DNA of 23,398 nt from a virus. The notes below the pieces were generated by a model that was not told the DNA's origin, searched no databases, and worked only from the letters and a program-made list of their open reading frames with translations. Shown here piece by piece: positions 4,481 through 12,501 of the stretch. Within the stretch, counting starts at the first letter, position 1; the number at the start of each line of letters is the position of its first letter. Where the stretch lies: positions 1 through 23,398 of IMG/VR virus record IMGVR_UViG_3300027156_000047; one strand, written 5' to 3'. The position numbers and the translations under genes are program-made.

Positions 4481-4623
4481 TGTGGACATTCGTATACATC
4501 GTTCTCGCTGCGTACATAGCCTATCGCATAGGTAAACGTACAGGTGAGCAAAGGATGTACCAGTTATGCAAGAACGCTGACCAAGTACAACGTGAGTTCT
4601 TCTCGCGTCTTACTACTAAGTAG
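4480..4623 (+). CDS. Small single-pass membrane protein, 47 aa
   Basis: A 48-codon frame that starts in a TAATG overlap behind GGATTGGAGGTAA. Residues 2-17 (WTFVYIVLAAYIAYRI) form one membrane segment. The Lys/Arg that follow (GKRTGEQR) suggest the C-terminal part stays in the cytoplasm. It is the last gene of the plus-strand block. Its TAG at 4621..4623 overlaps the end of the convergent glycosyltransferase gene by eight bases. No family is recognised. Small membrane proteins of this kind in phages can act in exclusion or lysis control, but there is no direct sign of either. Confidence 0.68.
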   Translation: MWTFVYIVLAAYIAYRIGKRTGEQRMYQLCKNADQVQREFFSRLTTK

Positions 4624-5437
4624 AACCATCCGAAGGGGCGGGGGCTTGTGCCTCCGCCTCTTTTTCTTTACGCGCCTGAGCTTGCATGGAATTAGCCATC
4701 GTAATCCAATACAACTTATAGTATTCCTCATCAAATGCAAACCGCTTCATGTGTTTTACTGTCGCTCCTGTATGTACATGCAATGGAATCCCAGCCTCTT
4801 TCATCTTCATGAAGAACTGGATGTCCTCACCAATGAAAGTATCCTTGGCGGTATTGGAATCATCCATTGATTCAATAAAGAATGAGATGTCACCATGGAA
4901 CTCTCGCATCTTGTCAGCCACTGACCTGTGCATGAGAAGGAATCCAAACCCAGCGTAATCAACCCTGATTAATTCATTGGGTGGCAGGGGATGGACATAA
5001 CTCATCAAGTATTTGTCACCCTCAACCGCTGTGAACACAGCAGGATAAGGCTCCATCACTGAGTTCTCCATCTGCTTAGAGATGAAGTAGGTTCCGCTAA
5101 CAATAGGTCGCTCAACTGCATGAGCAGACTTCCATACCAACTGTAAAGCTTCGTTCGTAAGAACGATATCGCTATCAACCCAGAGTAACCAATCAAAGTT
5201 AGTCTTCTTATGCCAGACATCGAATGCTGTCTGGCGTTGTCTTCCTATCTGATTACCCTGCACACGCTGTGCGCTAGTAATAGGCAGCCCAGCAGTTAGG
5301 ATTGTATAGACAACACCTTCCATGAACTTGCCATCGACTATCCCGTTGTCGCACCAGACCATCATGATTTGATTATTCGGTGGGCTGGTAACTGCTGGCA
5401 CTTTAATCTGCTTTGAGGGATTGCCTGACTTACCCAC
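4616..5437 (-). CDS. GT-A-fold glycosyltransferase, 273 aa
   Basis: The sequence has the hallmarks of a small GT-A (family 2-like) glycosyltransferase. There is an N-terminal strand MMVWCDNG, a NxxGRQRQTAFDVW segment near 62-75, the metal- and nucleotide-sugar-binding DxD at D88-S89-D90 (WVDSDI), a GFGFLLMHRSVADKM acceptor-side segment near 163-177, GED (203-205), and a late His in GATVKHMKRFAF. Likely roles are glycosylation of phage DNA, of a virion protein or of the host surface; the sequence does not choose between them. The start is GTG at 5437, behind AAGGAAAAAATA, overlapping the previous stop by one base. The Ala/Pro-rich tail is encoded over an opposing terminator. Confidence 0.85.
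   Translation of the reverse strand: MGKSGNPSKQIKVPAVTSPPNNQIMMVWCDNGIVDGKFMEGVVYTILTAGLPITSAQRVQGNQIGRQRQTAFDVWHKKTNFDWLLWVDSDIVLTNEALQLVWKSAHAVERPIVSGTYFISKQMENSVMEPYPAVFTAVEGDKYLMSYVHPLPPNELIRVDYAGFGFLLMHRSVADKMREFHGDISFFIESMDDSNTAKDTFIGEDIQFFMKMKEAGIPLHVHTGATVKHMKRFAFDEEYYKLYWITMANSMQAQARKEKEAEAQAPAPSDGST
4633..4670 (+). terminator. Rho-independent terminator of the plus-strand operon
   Basis: The arms 4635..4645 and 4650..4660 pair over 11 bp, including two G-U wobbles (core GGCGGGGGC / GCCTCCGCC) around a TTGT loop. TTTTTCTTTA follows at 4661..4670, and AA at 4633..4634 can extend the stem. It begins ten bases after the last plus-strand stop codon. It lies entirely within the minus-strand glycosyltransferase gene, in the codons for that protein's Ala/Pro/Glu-rich C-terminal tail. 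Confidence 0.8.
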
Positions 5438-5604
5438 TATTTTTTTCCTTTTTTCTTTCTTGCTGCTGCTGCGTTGTCTACTAGGTTTGGATACGGTCTA
5501 CCTGCTGCCTTGGCACGAGCCTTTGCTGCTGTCTTCTGCTCAGGTGTAAGTGGTGTTGATGTCTTCTTTGGATTAGTTGTCTTCCAGAATGGTTTCTTCT
5601 TCAT
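5437..5604 (-). CDS. Lys/Arg-rich mini-protein, 55 aa
   Basis: A 56-codon frame with one-base overlaps on both sides (TAATG with the sigma-like gene upstream, TAGTG with the glycosyltransferase downstream). It is very basic (MKKKPFWKTTNPKK... and a terminal ARKKKGKK) and has a central helix TPEQKTAAKARAKAAGRPYPNLVDNAAA. I recall an 'AGRPYPNLVDN'-type motif in small basic proteins of actinophages, of unknown function. The charge suggests nucleic-acid binding. The tight overlaps are the main evidence that it is translated. Confidence 0.72.
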   Translation of the reverse strand: MKKKPFWKTTNPKKTSTPLTPEQKTAAKARAKAAGRPYPNLVDNAAAARKKKGKK

Positions 5605-6242
5605 TAGTATGGTGTTACCCCTCCGAGATATTCAGTTATATCTCTTAGTCCTTTGTTAATAATCTGCTCCACCCTTTGTGGAGAGATGTCCCAGTATTCG
5701 GCTATCACTGCAAGAGATTCATCGCCTGCATATTTTGATTTTAATATCTGATGTGTACGTAAGTCGAGCTTCTTCAATGCTCTATCTACATCAGACAACA
5801 TAGCCAATAGATTGTTACCTTCGTTCGGTTGCTTCTTTGCTTTAACGCCATGGATATCTGGGTCCATTACTTGGTTAGTTAAATGTGCATCGTCAGAACC
5901 AATAACCTTGATGAGAGTTTCAATCATAGCCAGACGATAGAAGTACTCATCTCCTAGTTCATACCCAAGAGCACGAGCCTTCTCCTTGCGAGCGTATCGC
6001 TCGCCTGCCCTACGTATGAACGTACTGAAAGCTTTGTATCCTTGTCTGCGTTCTATCTCATCTTCGCGGAGTAGGTACTCGGATACTTTATCCTTACGCT
6101 TCCATGCGTATTCATTCATAGCCTGCTTGACATCCGCAGGCTCAACAAACCTATGATATCTTTTAGATATATTCCAAGCAATCGTGCTTGTTATCTCATT
6201 AATGACTGACCATATCTCATGGTCTTTACTTAGATTAGTCAA
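5604..6242 (-). CDS. Sigma-70-like / HTH transcription regulator, 212 aa
   Basis: Residues about 158-203 (KLDLRTHQILKSKY, then LAVIAEYWDISPQRVEQIINKGLRDI) have the layout of sigma region 4: a short helix, then a helix-turn-helix ending in the typical 'S.QRV.QI...GL..I' recognition helix. The N-terminal 110 residues are helical and charged and could correspond to a degenerate region 2, but I see no clear -10-binding motif. It may redirect host RNA polymerase to phage promoters or act as an anti-sigma-type regulator. Its position in the replication operon fits a middle gene that switches on the late structural operon (inference). The ATG at 6242 overlaps the previous gene by eight bases. Confidence 0.65.
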   Translation of the reverse strand: MTNLSKDHEIWSVINEITSTIAWNISKRYHRFVEPADVKQAMNEYAWKRKDKVSEYLLREDEIERRQGYKAFSTFIRRAGERYARKEKARALGYELGDEYFYRLAMIETLIKVIGSDDAHLTNQVMDPDIHGVKAKKQPNEGNNLLAMLSDVDRALKKLDLRTHQILKSKYAGDESLAVIAEYWDISPQRVEQIINKGLRDITEYLGGVTPY

Positions 6243-6525
6243 ATGATTTCACCAAATATTCCACAGCCTTGAGCATCAACTTGATGTCATCGTTAAGTAA
6301 ACCAAGCGCACGATTATGATTAGAGCAGAGCAAGCCTCGCACCTGTCCAGTCTTGTGGTCATGGTCTATGTCAAGAGCTCGTCTGCCTTCAGGTTCCTTG
6401 CCACAGATATAACAGCCACCATTCTGGGAATCAAGCATGTCTTTGTATTCTTCAACGCTGATACCATAACTACGGATGCGGGATATGCGTTGCTCTTCGT
6501 AAGTTTTATTTCTGTTTCTCGGCAT
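6235..6525 (-). CDS. Endonuclease VII-like HNH nuclease, 96 aa
   Basis: The core matches the recombination endonuclease VII superfamily: YGISVEEYKDMLDSQNGGC, then C38-x2-C41 and C67 with H70 as the zinc site, and the catalytic LDIDHDHKTG (51-60) followed by VRGLLCSNHNRALG. Proteins of this family resolve branched DNA or nick it. At 96 residues it is little more than the catalytic domain, about the usual size for actinophage members. I start it at the ATG at 6525; a GTG at 6543 is also in frame. It overlaps the Nmad1 gene by about 20 bases. Confidence 0.9.
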   Translation of the reverse strand: MPRNRNKTYEEQRISRIRSYGISVEEYKDMLDSQNGGCYICGKEPEGRRALDIDHDHKTGQVRGLLCSNHNRALGLLNDDIKLMLKAVEYLVKSFD

Positions 6526-6820
6526 ACTTCGCCCACACTCCACGCTGTACCATTAGTGCGATGATTGCATAGTTCGCCAAGTCAACAAATGAATCTTCTA
6601 AAGATTCATTGTTCGGTGTAACCTTTTTATATATCAGGTTCTTTAACCGTTCCAGCTTGTCGGACATACGTACCATCAGCCCATTGGTTGCGCCACCTGG
6701 CGCATGCCAGATGTTGTATGGACCATAGTCGATTTGTTTTTTTACCAGGATTGCTAAGAGTTCATCGTAAATTTTTTGTGCATCCTCTTCAAACTGAAGG
6801 ATGGTTGTTTCGTCTGACAC
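6506..6820 (-). CDS. Nmad1 / DUF1599-family protein, 104 aa
   Basis: The pattern Q29-I-DYG-PYNI, then GGATNGLMVRMSDKLERL (42-59), then ESLEDSFVDLANYAIIAL (72-89) fits the DUF1599 / 'nucleotide modification associated domain 1' family, an all-helical MazG-like fold. Members sit in phage operons and are predicted to act on modified or non-canonical nucleotides; direct biochemistry is limited. D76, D80 and N83 lie where metal-binding residues of the fold are expected. The start is GTG at 6820, behind TAGGGGTTCC. It ends inside the endonuclease VII-like gene. Confidence 0.8.
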   Translation of the reverse strand: MSDETTILQFEEDAQKIYDELLAILVKKQIDYGPYNIWHAPGGATNGLMVRMSDKLERLKNLIYKKVTPNNESLEDSFVDLANYAIIALMVQRGVWAKYAEKQK

Positions 6821-6827
6821 GGAACCC

Positions 6828-7475
6828 CTATTCGTCTAACGCATTAATCAACTTGGTTAATGCTTGAGCTCCTTGGTCTGTAATTATACTATTGATATCG
6901 CTGTCAGGCGGAAGCGACACGCGGAACGCTTGGGGTATTGCATCAGACAAACGTCTGGCTAGTTCTTGTCCTGGGTTGGAGCCATCCTCTTTGATGTCAT
7001 TATCTGTGGCTATAACAACGCGACCAATCCCGTCAAAACAACGGCTAAAATGAGGCTTCCAAGCATTAACGCCAGCCACAGCGACAGCAGGATGCCCAGC
7101 AAGAGTTGCAGATATCGCATCAATCTCTCCCTCTACTATTAGTATCTCACGGACTGCATGAAGAATAGCATTGACATTGTATAGGTGGTGCTTCTGACCA
7201 GTAGGTATCATGTACTTAGGTTCTCCGTTATCTATACGACGGAACTTAAACCCAACAACACCAGCCTCTGTTATGTATGGAATTGATAGGTGGTTCTTGA
7301 GCCTGTCCTCATGACCTGGTGCAGCCTCAGTAACGTAACCAAGCTTAAACAATTCAGCGCCATCCATGATGCCACGCTTTATTAGATACGCCTCGGCTGG
7401 TGAACCAGCAAGGTTGCCATGGTATGTGTTGGCTGCCTTAGTCCAAAGGTCAATTAGCTTTTGGTTTGGTTTCAC
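6828..7475 (-). CDS. DNA primase catalytic (TOPRIM) subunit without zinc finger, 215 aa
   Basis: This is the RNA-polymerase part of a DnaG-like primase. The N-terminal subdomain runs from about 25 to 105 (YLIKRGI, FKLGYV, LSIPYITEAGVVGFKFRR, KHHLYNV), followed by a TOPRIM domain with the catalytic Glu in ILIVEGEIDA (E115) and the acidic pair in VVIATDND (D158, D160). It lacks the CHC2 zinc finger that normally precedes this core and the helicase-binding C-terminus; the finger is on a separate gene at 8002..8331. I chose GTG at 7475 because AGGAGAAGAA precedes it and it makes a GTGA overlap with the protease gene. The longer open frame to 7556 would overlap that gene by 85 bases. Confidence 0.88.
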   Translation of the reverse strand: MKPNQKLIDLWTKAANTYHGNLAGSPAEAYLIKRGIMDGAELFKLGYVTEAAPGHEDRLKNHLSIPYITEAGVVGFKFRRIDNGEPKYMIPTGQKHHLYNVNAILHAVREILIVEGEIDAISATLAGHPAVAVAGVNAWKPHFSRCFDGIGRVVIATDNDIKEDGSNPGQELARRLSDAIPQAFRVSLPPDSDINSIITDQGAQALTKLINALDE

Positions 7476-8005
7476 TTCTTCTCCTGCCTGTGAACTGTGA
7501 AAGGAGGAGCAGTATACACATCGTTCTTTGCTGCAACCTGCATCGCTCTCTTCCAATTGGCTCCAGATGCAATAGCACCTATGGCATAGGATGACCCCGA
7601 CCCTAAACCATAGATGCCATCATCGCGTAGGAAGACTGAGTACGTATCATCCACCTCGTAGATGGTTCCGTTCACAGCCATTAAAAAAAGAAACTCATAC
7701 TCTTCTGCCTTCTCATCATGAACGAATCCATTATCACGTAAACATTCACGTAGGTTAGGGATGACAGTTGTAATCATAAAATGATAGATGTCTTTTGTAT
7801 TAGCTGGTATGGCTGGCGGTTTCCATATGTGTTGGACTATGTCACATGGTTGAGTAGTGCCAGCACCAGCGATTAAAAACTTACCGCGTTTAGTAATCTT
7901 AGTTACGATTGGATGTGAGTAAGGACGACCCTTCTCTGTGGTTGTCCTACTATCGGCTGCTATCAAGCAGCCGTTTGGTTCTTGTATACCTATTATGGTT
8001 GTCAT
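7472..8005 (-). CDS. HslV/proteasome beta-like Ntn-hydrolase, 177 aa
   Basis: The start MTTIIGI...GCLIAADSRTTT matches the N-terminal-nucleophile protease fold of HslV and proteasome beta subunits. After Met removal, Thr1 would be exposed without a propeptide, as in HslV. The other catalytic features are present: Asp17 (AADSR), a Lys about 35 residues in (VTKITK), a glycine turn AGAGTT, and GLGSGSSYAIGAI where the proteasome GSG/Ser-129 motif lies, followed by the typical A..AKNDVYTAPP end. It should form a barrel-shaped peptidase, but I see no HslU/ClpX-like unfoldase in the window. It lies between the two primase pieces, with four-base overlaps on both sides. Confidence 0.87.
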   Translation of the reverse strand: MTTIIGIQEPNGCLIAADSRTTTEKGRPYSHPIVTKITKRGKFLIAGAGTTQPCDIVQHIWKPPAIPANTKDIYHFMITTVIPNLRECLRDNGFVHDEKAEEYEFLFLMAVNGTIYEVDDTYSVFLRDDGIYGLGSGSSYAIGAIASGANWKRAMQVAAKNDVYTAPPFTVHRQEKK

Positions 8006-9107: not shown

Positions 9108-9245
9108 TTACCACTCGATGCTAAACCAAAAGAAAGCTAGGTCTATACTGAAACTAAACCTGTCAATATTTATACCAACACCAAACCTGGTTAGGCTGTA
9201 GCCTAAACTAAATCTACCGACGGTTAATGACCAATGTCTTTTCAT
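9108..9245 (-). CDS. Tiny beta-patterned peptide coupled to WhiB, 45 aa
   Basis: A 46-codon frame starts in an ATGA overlap with the whiB-like stop and ends immediately before the resolvase ATG, filling the only gap between those genes. The peptide alternates polar and hydrophobic residues and repeats an R-F-x-hydrophobic-x theme: GRFSLGYSL, TRFGVGINI, DRFSFSIDL, ending in AFFWFSIEW. That pattern suggests a three-stranded sheet or a membrane-active beta peptide. No Cys, and no helix-forming stretch. I do not recognise a family with confidence. Confidence 0.68.
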   Translation of the reverse strand: MKRHWSLTVGRFSLGYSLTRFGVGINIDRFSFSIDLAFFWFSIEW

Positions 9246-9508
9246 GTGTAATCCTTTACTAGTATCTCTTGTAGAATTATTTTTCTTTTACTCCTGAGTT
9301 TCTTACGTTCAAGTGGTGTGGTTCCACCCCACATACCGAACGACTCGTGCCTTACTGCCCATTCCAGACATTTATTCTTGACCATACAACTGTCACATAT
9401 TCTACGAGAGAGGTTGTATATATCAGTACCGCTTCCTCCTTCTTCTGGAAAGAAGAACTCGATACCAACTTCTCTACATAGCCCCCTGGTCAGGTCTGGA
9501 AATCTCAT
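9242..9508 (-). CDS. WhiB-family iron-sulfur transcription regulator, 88 aa
   Basis: C11, then C38-x2-C41-x5-C47 are the four Cys that bind the [4Fe-4S] cluster in WhiB-like proteins. G58-M-W-G-G62 is the family's beta-turn, followed by TPLERKKLRSKRK, a basic DNA-binding tail. WhiB proteins act by binding region 4 of the primary sigma factor; they are found in Actinobacteria and their phages, which makes this the best host marker in the window. The ATG at 9508 has GAAAGGGAAACAC upstream and overlaps the previous gene by 35 bases. Confidence 0.93.
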   Translation of the reverse strand: MRFPDLTRGLCREVGIEFFFPEEGGSGTDIYNLSRRICDSCMVKNKCLEWAVRHESFGMWGGTTPLERKKLRSKRKIILQEILVKDYT

Positions 9509-9902
9509 TTGTGTTTCCCTTTCGTAGTAACTTCATTGCGGACAATAAATTTTCTATCGTAACCAAGTAACCTTTACTTCGGTTCGGGGGAATCTCACAA
9601 GTAATCTCATGACCCCAGTTCTTGACTACGTATCTTACGTAATCTGTCGGAACCATAATCACACCTTCTTCTAAGACGAATGCCCAGTAATCAGCTTGTG
9701 TTACTGATAAACCAGATGGTTCCCAAGATTGGGATTTAAGATACCAGCATTCAACTTCAATGTAAACATTGTTTGTCTTGTGCCACTTGCGGTCACGCTT
9801 TACTTCAACAGTTTTACCATTAGTAAGAAGTTGTTTAACAAGTTGCTCACCTTCTTGACCATAGTTAAAATCTAAATCGAAACTTGATTTAGTTATTTCC
9901 AT
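9474..9902 (-). CDS. PD-(D/E)XK-type nuclease-like protein, 142 aa
   Basis: FDLDFNYGQEGEQLVKQLL at the N-terminus, TVEVKRDRKWHKT (E33-x-K35) and VYIEVECWY follow the motif order of small restriction-like or resolvase-like nucleases. SGLSVTQADYWAFVL is a typical 'G...T.ADYW' segment, after which the protein continues with MVPTDYVRYVV. The catalytic acid is probably Asp9 or Asp11. A role in processing DNA ends or branches fits the neighbourhood but is inferred. The start overlaps the helicase gene's end by ten bases; the 3' end overlaps whiB by 35 bases in another frame. Confidence 0.72.
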   Translation of the reverse strand: MEITKSSFDLDFNYGQEGEQLVKQLLTNGKTVEVKRDRKWHKTNNVYIEVECWYLKSQSWEPSGLSVTQADYWAFVLEEGVIMVPTDYVRYVVKNWGHEITCEIPPNRSKGYLVTIENLLSAMKLLRKGNTNEISRPDQGAM

Positions 9903-10726
9903 TGACCCAATGTCCTTGCTCTAAACAATTCTGTCGATGAGTTATATAAAGTCATCTTGCTAGCTTCCGCTGCTAACGTTATGTATTCCTCTGCATTAGG
10001 GTCAGACTTACCATGTCGATTCTTAACCACAGCCACACGATAAACGTTGGCTATGCTATCCAGCGCCACGGACAGGACTAGTTCTGGTAGGGCTGCAACC
10101 TTGCCCATCAGAGCCTTACGTGGCGCTGGGTAGTTTGGCTTAGACATCTTCTCGTTCTCAGATACGTGATGCAGAACGATGAAGGCGGTTTCATATTCAC
10201 GTGCCATATAGTGAAAGGCGGACATAGCGTCGCGTAACGCTGTCCATTCGTTGTCGCTGGCTGCAGCGACGTTCATTAAATTATCTACATATACTGCTGT
10301 CGGCGCAGCACCGTGCAGTTCAATCCAAGCCTCGACCTCTTCCTCGATATCTTGTAACGAGGGAGCTGGGTCAAATGCAAATCGAACATGTGCTGCGCCT
10401 TCAGCTAACGCATCTTCTAGGAGAACACTTGCTTCAGTGTCCATGATTCTCTCAACATCAGCCACTTCTCTGTCCATAATGATTGCACCTGCACGAGTTG
10501 CAATCGTTCTTGAATCGGAATCCGCTGAGATATATAACGCTGGAACTTTTGAAGTAATGGCGTACCACAATGCAAGTAGAGTTTTACCACCACCTGGTTG
10601 TCCTGCAATTAAATGCAGTTGTGCTTGACGAAAAGCAACCTGGTTAGCAGTAAGGACAGGGAGCACCTCTGGTAATTGCTTACCAGCAGGTGACTCCACA
10701 CCCACTACTTGCAATAGTGAACGCAT
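9893..10726 (-). CDS. DnaB-like replicative helicase core (RecA fold), 277 aa
   Basis: The protein is a RecA-type ATPase. The Walker A motif is AGQPGGGKT (41-49), followed by LYISADSD, Walker B AVYVDNLMN with Asp148, and FIVLHHVSE (182-190) as the sensor/His motif. The late VVKNRHGKS segment holds a likely arginine finger. This is the motor domain of DnaB/RepA-like helicases. The N-terminal primase-binding domain of DnaB (about 170 residues) is absent; only about 35 residues precede the core. It would form a hexamer that unwinds phage DNA with the split primase encoded downstream. It lies two bases after the preceding stop. Confidence 0.87.
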   Translation of the reverse strand: MRSLLQVVGVESPAGKQLPEVLPVLTANQVAFRQAQLHLIAGQPGGGKTLLALWYAITSKVPALYISADSDSRTIATRAGAIIMDREVADVERIMDTEASVLLEDALAEGAAHVRFAFDPAPSLQDIEEEVEAWIELHGAAPTAVYVDNLMNVAAASDNEWTALRDAMSAFHYMAREYETAFIVLHHVSENEKMSKPNYPAPRKALMGKVAALPELVLSVALDSIANVYRVAVVKNRHGKSDPNAEEYITLAAEASKMTLYNSSTELFRARTLGQWK

Positions 10727-10728
10727 GT

Positions 10729-11190
10729 CTAGCCTTTAAGCCAGACAGTTTCTGCTTCCGCAGCACCAGGCTTGAACGGCTTCGGTCCCTTGATTGGGTC
10801 AAACCAACCAACGTAAGCCTTCCCTGCCTTTGATATGCCCTTCTTCTTGGCATACTTGCCACGTCCATCTGGTAGGTCTGGAGCATCTGGATGTCCATAT
10901 GTCCATTCATTACCGTACTTATCTTTGACTACCTCAATGGTCTGAGGTGATGATGCAGGCTGAGGGTTCATGCCAGCATCTTGAAGCACCTGTATTGCTT
11001 GCTCCATGTTTGGTGCGTATGCATTACCAGATGGTCTGTTAACCAGTAATGATTGCAAACTCTGTGCTTCGTTGATTGCATCAACTGCTGCCATTAAGTT
11101 TGCCTTGAATTCAGCAATACTCATACCGCGAACGGTAAATAAGTCTTGCCCGTTTAGCTTGCCAGTATACGAAAACGTAGACTCAGTCAT
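10729..11190 (-). CDS. Hypothetical replication-operon protein, 153 aa
   Basis: The first 45 residues (TFSYTGKLNGQDLFTVRGMSI, then AEFKANLMAAVDAI) resemble a small strand-helix module common in actinophage replication regions. A Pro/Ala/Gln-rich linker (about 50-85) leads to a C-terminal part with KYGNEWTYGHPD and a basic GKYAKKKGISKAGKAY. Its place between a nuclease and the helicase would suit a single-stranded-DNA-binding or loader protein, but no diagnostic motif is visible and I leave the role open. The start is in an ATGA overlap with the nuclease stop. Confidence 0.78.
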   Translation of the reverse strand: MTESTFSYTGKLNGQDLFTVRGMSIAEFKANLMAAVDAINEAQSLQSLLVNRPSGNAYAPNMEQAIQVLQDAGMNPQPASSPQTIEVVKDKYGNEWTYGHPDAPDLPDGRGKYAKKKGISKAGKAYVGWFDPIKGPKPFKPGAAEAETVWLKG

Positions 11191-11858
11191 CTACCTTTTC
11201 CTTTCTTTCCCTGTGTTGTAGGTATTTGCAGAGGGAATTCTTTTGAACCCATGGCTGGGCATTTCTCTTGGAACGAACACATCTTACAATTTTCACCAAC
11301 GGATGGTGGGAACCAGCCTTTAGACACGGAGTCATTCATTGCACCGAATACATAATCAAAATAATCTATACTCAAATGGGATAAGTCAAATAGGTCATCG
11401 AGTTGACCTTGTCTTGTCATGAAGAACGCACCGAACTTTGGTCGGATGCCATACATTTTCTCAATACCACTGGCATATAAGCCAGCTTGAATCATACCGA
11501 ATGGTGTCCTAGCACCAGTCTTGAAGTCAACTATTACCAAGTCTTCCCCCACTTGGTAAACGACATCAAGGATAAAGCGAACAGGTGTGCCTCCGAAAAA
11601 CACACTTGCATCCCACTCGATGCCAGGACGACCATCAGGCATTGTAGCAATTTTCCAACCAGATTGTGCATACCATTTCTGATAAGCCTCAACCTGCTTG
11701 AGTCCATCGCTTTGCCAGAACGATAGGTCTTCCCCGTCTGGGCGAGCTATGGTCTTGCGACCAGCAGTTCTCCATTCAGAACTAGGAATACCTGTTTGTT
11801 CTTCGACATCTCTAACAGATTCATTAAATATTTCAAGCCACTTCTCAGTAAAAATCAT
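11187..11858 (-). CDS. Cas4/RecB-like nuclease, catalytic part, 223 aa
   Basis: FILDVVYQ (Asp98), LVIVDFKTG (D111-x-K113) and MIQAGLYASG (the conserved Gln-x3-Tyr) are motifs II, III and QhXXY of RecB/Cas4-type exonucleases. Near the end C191-x2-C194-x5-C200-P gives three of the four Cys of the iron-sulfur cluster of Cas4/AddB-like members. What should precede it is missing here: the first Cys (CPxKYY) and the G..xH motif. Both are on a separate short gene at 12041..12247. Three ATGs in a row open the frame (11864, 11861, 11858); I use the last because GAAGG is then correctly spaced. Confidence 0.85.
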   Translation of the reverse strand: MIFTEKWLEIFNESVRDVEEQTGIPSSEWRTAGRKTIARPDGEDLSFWQSDGLKQVEAYQKWYAQSGWKIATMPDGRPGIEWDASVFFGGTPVRFILDVVYQVGEDLVIVDFKTGARTPFGMIQAGLYASGIEKMYGIRPKFGAFFMTRQGQLDDLFDLSHLSIDYFDYVFGAMNDSVSKGWFPPSVGENCKMCSFQEKCPAMGSKEFPLQIPTTQGKKGKGR

Positions 11859-12075
11859 CATCATCCTTCGGAGTATAGTCTGGGTTATCTATAGGGGTGG
11901 GGGTAGTCATCGGCGACCCACAGGTCGCACAGAAGGAATCAGTAAACCACATAACGAGCTCGTAGTCTTGGAAGATAGCACGAACGATTTGCATGTTGGA
12001 GCCACAGTTAATACATTCATTGCTGGGTATCCCCCTCTGGTTAATTAGATTCTTGTTGGGTTCTATAGAACTCAT
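11845..12075 (-). CDS. Zinc-ribbon protein inserted between nuclease halves, 76 aa
   Basis: C21-x2-C24 (ECINCGSNM) and C49-x2-C52 (FCATCGSPM) form a zinc ribbon, with a helix/strand between them (IVRAIFQDYELVMWFTDS) and an acidic tail (DDDDFY). Its first 35 bases overlap the end of the N-terminal nuclease piece, and its end overlaps the start of the catalytic piece. The three frames are therefore likely translated in sequence. Whether it joins the nuclease complex is unknown. GGAG lies about ten bases before the ATG. Confidence 0.75.
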   Translation of the reverse strand: MSSIEPNKNLINQRGIPSNECINCGSNMQIVRAIFQDYELVMWFTDSFCATCGSPMTTPTPIDNPDYTPKDDDDFY

Positions 12076-12247
12076 GGTTCATCCACTCCAACATTGAATG
12101 CACGGCAGAGCCAGCAGCCAGGTAGACGGCTGGTTTTTCTGGGACCATTGCAATCTTGCTAAGGTAGTATTTCTGAGGGCAGGATTGCCAGGTAGATAGC
12201 TGGCTATACGACCTATGTGGGGGGAGTTCAGGCATACCATGTATCAT
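12041..12247 (-). CDS. N-terminal piece of the Cas4/RecB-like nuclease, 68 aa
   Basis: SYSQLSTWQSCPQKYYL (13-29) is the classic start of Cas4/AddB/PD-(D/E)XK exonucleases, with C23 the first cluster Cys. It is followed by AAGSAVHSMLEWM (44-56), containing His50 of motif I. The frame then stops at TAA, well before the catalytic Asp and Lys, which are on the gene at 11187..11858. It is the first gene of the minus-strand replication operon. The start is uncertain: ATGs at 12256, 12247 and 12235 are possible and none has a strong ribosome binding site. Confidence 0.8.
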   Translation of the reverse strand: MIHGMPELPPHRSYSQLSTWQSCPQKYYLSKIAMVPEKPAVYLAAGSAVHSMLEWMNHEFYRTQQESN

Positions 12248-12332
12248 AGAACACATTACCAACTTTCTTAGGTAGCGACACGCATCGTTTTTAACCAATA
12301 GTGTGATAGGGTCGGGGGTGGTGGGAGGGAAA

Positions 12333-12351
12333 GGCTCGCTTAAGGCGAGCC
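12333..12351. promoter_or_regulatory. Perfect hairpin ahead of the orphan plus-strand gene
   Basis: GGCTCGC (12333..12339) and GCGAGCC (12345..12351) pair perfectly around TTAAG. It lies 13 bases before the ATG at 12364 and about 85 bases before the minus-strand operon's first gene. No T-run follows on either strand, so it may be an operator or a leader structure rather than a terminator. The interval 12299..12332 is G-rich (GTCGGGGGTGGTGGGAGGG) and I see no clear promoter in it. Confidence 0.55.
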
Positions 12352-12363
12352 GTGAAAAGAAAT

Positions 12364-12501
12364 ATGAATGAAGAAATAGAAAAGTTTATTCAGAAGATTG
12401 AAGATGCAAAGATTCCCGTCAAGGATGAATGGTCCGAGGGTCTTAACATGGGACTGGACTGGGCAATAAGGATACTAAAGAAAGATAAGTCTGCCTACTA
12501 A
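12364..12501 (+). CDS. Orphan plus-strand small protein, 45 aa
   Basis: A 46-codon frame (MNEEIEKFIQKIEDAKIP...) is the only plus-strand gene supported right of 4623. It is predicted to be two amphipathic helices: residues 2-17, and 24-42 with the segment WSEGLNMGLDWAIRIL. GAAAAG precedes the start by about seven bases. It ends 11 bases before a strong terminator hairpin. Codon usage and the helical pattern look natural, and small proteins with a 'W.EG.N.G..WAI' segment seem familiar from phages, but I cannot name a family. Confidence 0.62.
   Translation: MNEEIEKFIQKIEDAKIPVKDEWSEGLNMGLDWAIRILKKDKSAY

Follow-up and report, generated by a model that had tools for sequence, protein, structure and literature searches.

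Can one iron-sulphur nuclease be built from two proteins, and does a third gene, lying between the two that encode it, hold the enzyme together? This question is raised by a locus on the minus strand of a 23,398-base virus record (IMGVR_UViG_3300027156_000047, positions 1-23,398; this whole stretch is referred to as the window), where an N-part gene, a zinc-ribbon gene and a C-part gene overlap and replace the single exonuclease gene of related phages (Table 1). An initial annotation, made from the sequence alone, had read the locus as a Cas4/RecB-like nuclease split over two genes, with the zinc-ribbon protein perhaps holding its halves together; the overlaps that it described between all three frames were confirmed and are listed in the table.

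Table 1. Features of the split nuclease locus and its operon in the window
Feature	Positions	Strand	Details
N-part gene, 64 aa (MPELPPHRSYSQLSTWQSCPQKYY...GSAVH...)	12041..12235	-	First cluster Cys C19; motif-I His H46
Zinc-ribbon gene, 76 aa (CxxC...CxxCG..MT.PTP.D)	11845..12075	-	C21/C24/C49/C52; between N and C in clade A only
C-part gene, 223 aa	11187..11858	-	D98, D111-x-K113, Q124xxxY128, C191, C194, C200
N/zinc-ribbon frame overlap, 35 nt	12041..12075	-	Zinc-ribbon frame +1 to N; 31-35 nt kept in relatives
Zinc-ribbon/C frame overlap, 14 nt	11845..11858	-	C frame +1
-10 promoter hexamer TATGAT	12243..12248	-	7 nt before the N start codon
153-aa gene after the C-part	10729..11190	-	ATG overlaps the C stop by 4 nt (ATGA)
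DnaB-like helicase, same replication/recombination operon	9893..10726	-	phrog_243, 7.7e-74

Genomic setting of the locus

The window carries WhiB (9242-9508), sigma factor (5604-6242) and glycosyltransferase (4616-5437) genes together with DnaB-like helicase, primase and RusA-like genes, a set in keeping with the family of freshwater actinophages first isolated on Ca. Planktophila (PMC10202952). Among the genes annotated in this fragment, the neighbours of the locus are phage replication genes, and no cas1, cas2 or other CRISPR genes were noticed among them. In Mycobacterium, Rhodococcus, Gordonia, Streptomyces and Propionibacterium phages, the unsplit exonuclease gene is likewise followed by a DnaB-like helicase gene. 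In what follows, clade A is the window's own clade, and clade B is a second, distant split clade that includes the cultured Planktophila phages LanE43AprE7 (E7) and F5.

The 153-residue gene that follows the C-part gave no match in a profile search of families; its counterpart at the same place in F5 matches phrog_364 (1e-13), in Cutibacterium phage PAC4 the counterpart matches phrog_1890, with a weak match to phrog_364 as well, and its product might act together with the exonuclease. A perfect inverted repeat (GGCTCGC-TTAAG-GCGAGCC, 12333-12351) separates the N promoter region from the genes that follow, and is probably a terminator or insulator. Beyond it, a short ORF on the opposite strand (12352-12501, +; EEIEKFIQKIEDAKIPVKDEWSEGLNMGLDWAIRILKKDKSAY) has a relative in E7 and F5 that sits between the helicase and the RusA-like gene, and has been relocated within the genome, as the zinc ribbon has. 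The DNA primase region (6506-7556, -) may likewise span two ORFs (compare the annotation in Streptomyces phage Success and Cutibacterium phage PAC4); actinophages seem often to have split primases.

N and C are neighbouring segments of an iron-staple-type nuclease

Both chains match the PD-(D/E)XK family profile PF12705 above its cut-off (positions 3-50 for N, 113-247 for C), as well as phrog_1870 (at 11-68 for N; 4.9e-59 at 74-297 for C), and N additionally matches phrog_69 (4.6e-12). On these PF12705 and phrog_1870 positions, N and C are neighbouring segments of a single domain, which lacks almost nothing. Judged by these profiles and by its motifs, N and C together are one RecB/AddB/Cas4-type 'iron-staple' PD-(D/E)XK nuclease. 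The match to the CRISPR-associated Cas4 profile PF01930 fell below its cut-off (15.9 versus 22.7 bits), and a PDB sequence search with N+C gave no significant match.

The motifs of the family are distributed over both chains: the motif-I His is carried by N, and the motif-II Asp (D98), motif III (D111/K113) and Q124/Y128 are carried by C. The initial annotation had placed these latter residues, together with C191, C194 and C200, on a separate 223-residue protein; they are found there, and in our alignment these C-part residues, catalytic and Cys alike, are invariant across clade A, clade B and the unsplit relatives. On N, H46 and C19 are invariant among the 56 distinct sequences. The four cluster cysteines, one N-terminal (C19, N chain) and three C-terminal (C191/C194/C200, C chain), are invariant in both split clades. 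A single cluster in AddB and Cas4 is bound by four cysteines, one N-terminal and three C-terminal (PMC4176176, PMC3466216). The Cas4 proteins Pcal_0546 and SSO1391 can dispense with the cluster for nuclease activity (PMC4176176), so that the role of the cluster may lie in stability more than in catalysis; in 3L0A, from the related DUF3799, the bound metal is zinc, not iron (PMC3466216).

When N and C were aligned with full-length phage exonucleases, the gap fell just past the motif-I helix, where the unsplit chains differ in length, and the start of the C-part lay near a Met of the unsplit Mycobacterium and Gordonia proteins. In an AlphaFold2 model of an unsplit metagenomic relative, L242 (mean pLDDT 93.7), the break falls in a short surface loop of six residues (51-56) that follows the motif-I helix and connects helices 34-50 and 57-78. 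Structure comparison gave AdnA (Z 17.3), ACE1 (17.2), AddB (15.2), Dna2 (13.7) and Cas4 (13.6) as the folds closest to the L242 model. Modelled alone, the window's C-part had a well-predicted core, a Cys module at a pLDDT of about 53-64 and a best Z of 10.2, for the core only. The low pLDDT of the lone Cys module looks as if this module needed N, though a different alignment or the lack of context may be all that lies behind it.

The split recurs in two clades

Viral contigs were scanned with the C-part and a divergent C-part, and also with the zinc ribbon and with the helicase; many contigs were returned repeatedly, and more divergent arrangements may lie beyond the best 80 loci taken per scan. 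The proposed split, with a zinc-ribbon gene between the two nuclease genes, is real: the order N-Zn-C was found in every listed clade A relative whose contig covers the region, the matches listed comprising 56 distinct DNA sequences of N, 55 of the zinc ribbon and 69 of C.

A weak zinc-ribbon match then pointed to the Planktophila phages E7 and F5, in which the nuclease is broken in this loop too, N and C there forming a direct overlap. Used as a query, the E7/F5 C-part had 308 relatives, and among the best 80 of these 308 and the isolates all records with both pieces (78/78) are split. Unrelated genes occupy the junction in some clade B contigs: one ORF of about 110 residues, Lys-rich and coiled-coil-like, in L450 (5682-6011) and L460 (5661-6005), and two ORFs, spanning about 960 nt, in L432-434 (L432:4338-5310). 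None of the ORFs between N and C, whether zinc ribbon, Lys-rich or other, gave a confident match to a homing endonuclease, although such a gene could conceivably once have sat at the junction and since been lost. A search for the same split with the same neighbour, which the initial annotation had called for, thus has two answers: clade A is always N-Zn-C, and clade B is split without a zinc ribbon in between.

Unsplit relatives form a separate group. The best 80 contigs listed for a Rhodococcus-phage query were all unsplit, each tabulated cultured relative gave one continuous match, except E7 and F5, which gave two pieces, and the 85 unsplit relatives that were fetched, including Mycobacterium, Rhodococcus, Gordonia, Streptomyces and Cutibacterium phages, stand apart from the split clades. 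The earlier statement that relatives carry all elements on one chain holds for these single-gene relatives, but not for clade B. A search for intermediates with a variant CPxKYY motif yielded four contigs, none of them an intermediate, and scans of bacterial and archaeal genomes with the C-part found no relative.

Both genes are under selection, and long records show no intact copy

With codons in the gene overlaps trimmed, median dN/dS in clade A was 0.029 for N (56 distinct sequences), the lowest of the three genes, 0.044 for the zinc ribbon and 0.100 for C; in clade B the medians were 0.064 for N and 0.088 for C. By this measure all three genes are under strong purifying selection in clade A. 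Taken together, the recurrence of N-Zn-C in every covering clade A relative and dN/dS values of 0.03, 0.04 and 0.10 go far beyond chance.

These data also bear on the idea that the broken gene is a product of decay or of sequencing or assembly error, sequencing error being the outcome that the initial annotation had itself named as fatal to its claim. Individual contigs are indeed damaged, with a stop inside C in L032 (845-1567) and an N lacking its start, including the Cys, in L029 (1689-1961), each seen in a single contig. The same split is, however, found in identical form in both sequenced isolates and in independent contigs that number well above a hundred, dN/dS lies at 0.03-0.10 and the catalytic residues are invariant. 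Comparison across contigs and isolates thus refutes an origin by error or decay, to which we attach practically no probability.

An intact nuclease paralogue was found in none of 26 records of 39-43 kb, in each of which the family profiles detect one N and one C, with a further pair in the record G022 alone. In G022 (the record of L441, 41 kb) N/C pairs with slightly different scores lie near both ends (C1:40-763 and 40194-40950), and the second pair is either a terminal overlap of strain variants or a real duplication. Since no whole copy exists in these 26 long records, the nuclease, if the phage has one, must come from two pieces.

N and C are most likely translated separately

The N-part had been described as a 68-residue protein, starting at 12247 and with its Cys at position 23. 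The ORF (stop at 12041), the cluster Cys and the motif-I His stand, but 12235 (64 residues) is the likelier start, because 12247 falls within the -10 hexamer, TATGAT (12248-12243), which includes the ATG chosen in that reading. The start codon at 12235, the Met of M..LPPH, is universal in relatives. Of the 53 distinct upstream sequences in clade A, 52 (22 of 23 clusters) have TANNNT 6 or 7 nt ahead of the N ATG, and other spacings are mostly rare; a leaderless transcript would show just this spacing, and the N mRNA of clade A is probably leaderless. The downstream genes, zinc ribbon and C-part, begin inside the preceding gene, and the C-part ATG at 11858 is universal in relatives.

Programmed frameshifting or RNA splicing might instead fuse the frames into one chain, in which case the enzyme would not be truly split. 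Overlapping frames are indeed the rule, in most relatives as in the window, and the frame relation is constant. Two +1 shifts would nevertheless be required, the usual type being -1, N and C each have a conserved start codon, and in clade B the pieces can lie well apart: in L450 and L460 the C gene starts at a GTG about 300 nt away, with a Shine-Dalgarno site (AAGGAG) of its own, and in L432-434 N and C are separated by two genes over about 960 nt. Splicing fares no better, since an Rfam search of the window found no intron match and clade B leaves no room for an intron. On the strength of the frame relations, the separate starts, the inserts of up to about 960 nt and the Rfam result we rejected both a frameshift and an intron, and regard fusion into one chain as very improbable. 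The separate starts, the signals of the L450/L460 C gene and these limits on frameshifting make it most likely that N and C are translated separately.

A probable ancient gene fission

A maximum-likelihood tree of 48 rows, covering both split clades and the unsplit relatives, places the two split clades on one side of a branch (96/90), so that the split requires one change. The tree groups two long-branched clades, and long-branch attraction could still have some part in this. The best reading of these sequences is an ancient gene fission in an ancestor of a family of freshwater actinophages. As genes have entered an already split junction in clade B, fission first, with the zinc ribbon inserted afterwards, would be the simpler order; the reverse, insertion first and later removal, could also have occurred.

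Two chains, probably one enzyme

How, then, would the pieces work? We consider it likely that the locus encodes one iron-staple exonuclease as two separately translated chains, which assemble into one enzyme with the cluster stapling them together. With four invariant cysteines on two chains and no intact copy in the 26 long records, an Fe-S cluster built across N and C is the natural reading of the sequences. Comparison shows that the single gene of an ancestor was broken in the loop after the motif-I helix, a break kept by all descendants seen, and that the zinc-ribbon gene lies in the break in clade A, with nothing or other genes there in clade B. N would then be made from the leaderless transcript (in clade A) and C from its own start by coupled translation, after which the two would associate: the N helix with the motif-I His would pack onto the catalytic core of C, and Cys19 of N would join Cys191, Cys194 and Cys200 of C in one Fe-S cluster, stapling the chains. 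The resulting enzyme would process DNA ends as its unsplit relatives do, and the zinc-ribbon protein would have a separate job of its own.

A division of labour without reassembly would also account for two conserved genes, C alone acting as the nuclease, or as a nuclease-dead DNA binder, and N being a small regulator conserved for another reason. C retains all catalytic acids, the Lys and QxxxY, and some Cas4 proteins need no cluster. Yet what N retains is exactly the family's motif-I His and first cluster Cys, its dN/dS is lower than that of the zinc ribbon or of C, C keeps three Cys that lack a fourth ligand unless N supplies one, and the C-part alone is modelled less confidently; we therefore judge a division of labour unlikely. 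A stronger form of the two-chain reading, in which the Fe-S cluster is an obligate inter-chain staple whose assembly switches the enzyme on, and the zinc ribbon a dedicated assembly or metal-handling partner that joined the clade A operon, strikes us as rather improbable.

The zinc ribbon is probably a passenger

The zinc-ribbon protein has only weak Pfam zinc-ribbon matches; profile searches assigned it to no confident family, and it had no significant match in cultured phages. An apparent match in Bifidobacterium phage Bbif-1 was dismissed as chance, lying on the wrong strand of the ssb gene. The clade B homologue (35-39% identity) has the same four-Cys pattern and a TAPTPxD ending, and stands alone about 5 kb from the nuclease on the opposite strand.

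The initial annotation had suggested a three-part enzyme, and the zinc-ribbon protein might accordingly be a required bridge, chaperone or metal donor joining N and C. In clade A its gene is invariably placed between those of N and C, overlaps both and is under strong purifying selection, and a homologue is present in 23/23 split records and 0/17 unsplit records, although the search profile was derived from the split clades themselves and its silence in unsplit phages is weak for that reason. A clade A and a clade B genome moreover share dozens of homologous ORFs that are missing from RER2 and ACFishhook, including the terminase and capsid regions and the large structural-end ORFs; shared descent thus suffices to explain the co-occurrence, which is uninformative. 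The role of holder is not supported by comparison with clade B, where N and C overlap directly or flank one or two unrelated genes and the zinc ribbon lies far from the junction. A required zinc ribbon accordingly seems to us rather improbable. Because close relatives lack it at the junction, it is probably not essential, and on the present sequences we regard it as probably a passenger, not a required bridge.

Comparison with known systems

Should the two-chain reading be true, this would be, to our knowledge, the first of the AddB/Cas4/Dna2 iron-staple nucleases with a staple that has to join two proteins: loss of the cluster should separate the chains, and what the cluster is for would become directly testable. 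The split is fixed across a large group of viruses whose hosts, lake bacteria, are very abundant, and it can be studied in culture, since E7 and F5 both grow on Ca. Planktophila LanE-43. For annotation, about one fifth of the nuclease, with one motif and one cluster residue, is easily overlooked as a hypothetical protein of 61-68 residues. The junction itself is a broken gene that tolerates varied inserts, and shows genes in pieces evolving without a visible homing endonuclease.

The closest known counterpart is the actinobacteriophage Cas4/RecB-like exonuclease (phrog_1870/phrog_69; Mycobacterium phage ACFishhook gp71, Rhodococcus phage RER2 Orf49 and the Cutibacterium phage exonuclease), homologous to N+C over its full length at about 25-31% identity and sharing the motifs, the four Cys and the position upstream of a DnaB-like helicase and primase. 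It differs in being a single polypeptide in all tabulated cases, and in that no zinc-ribbon homologue was detected among the 17 unsplit records searched. AddB, AdnA, Dna2, Exo5, CRISPR Cas4 and the Cas4-family ACE1 are likewise single chains or domains, whereas here the ligand Cys lie on two chains.

The initial annotation knew of no description of such a three-part arrangement; the split itself has more precedent than this suggests, as split phage enzymes acting as two chains are known: the NrdA of Aeromonas phage Aeh1 and gp43 of phage 25 work in pieces (PMC2988022). Mitochondrial cox2 is reported to have undergone insertional fission into two complementary genes (PMC5374615), in a different organism, protein and compartment from the split nuclease. 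NrdA and gp43 resemble our locus in being broken by a gene in the middle, with tight gene overlaps, and the pieces work as one enzyme there, as we infer that they do here, where two nearby genes encode what in relatives is a one-chain enzyme. Where the gene between their pieces is known, it encodes a homing endonuclease, and their splits are local; the split described here has a zinc ribbon, nothing or other genes between its pieces, concerns what is by sequence an Fe-S-type nuclease, and marks a whole phage group.
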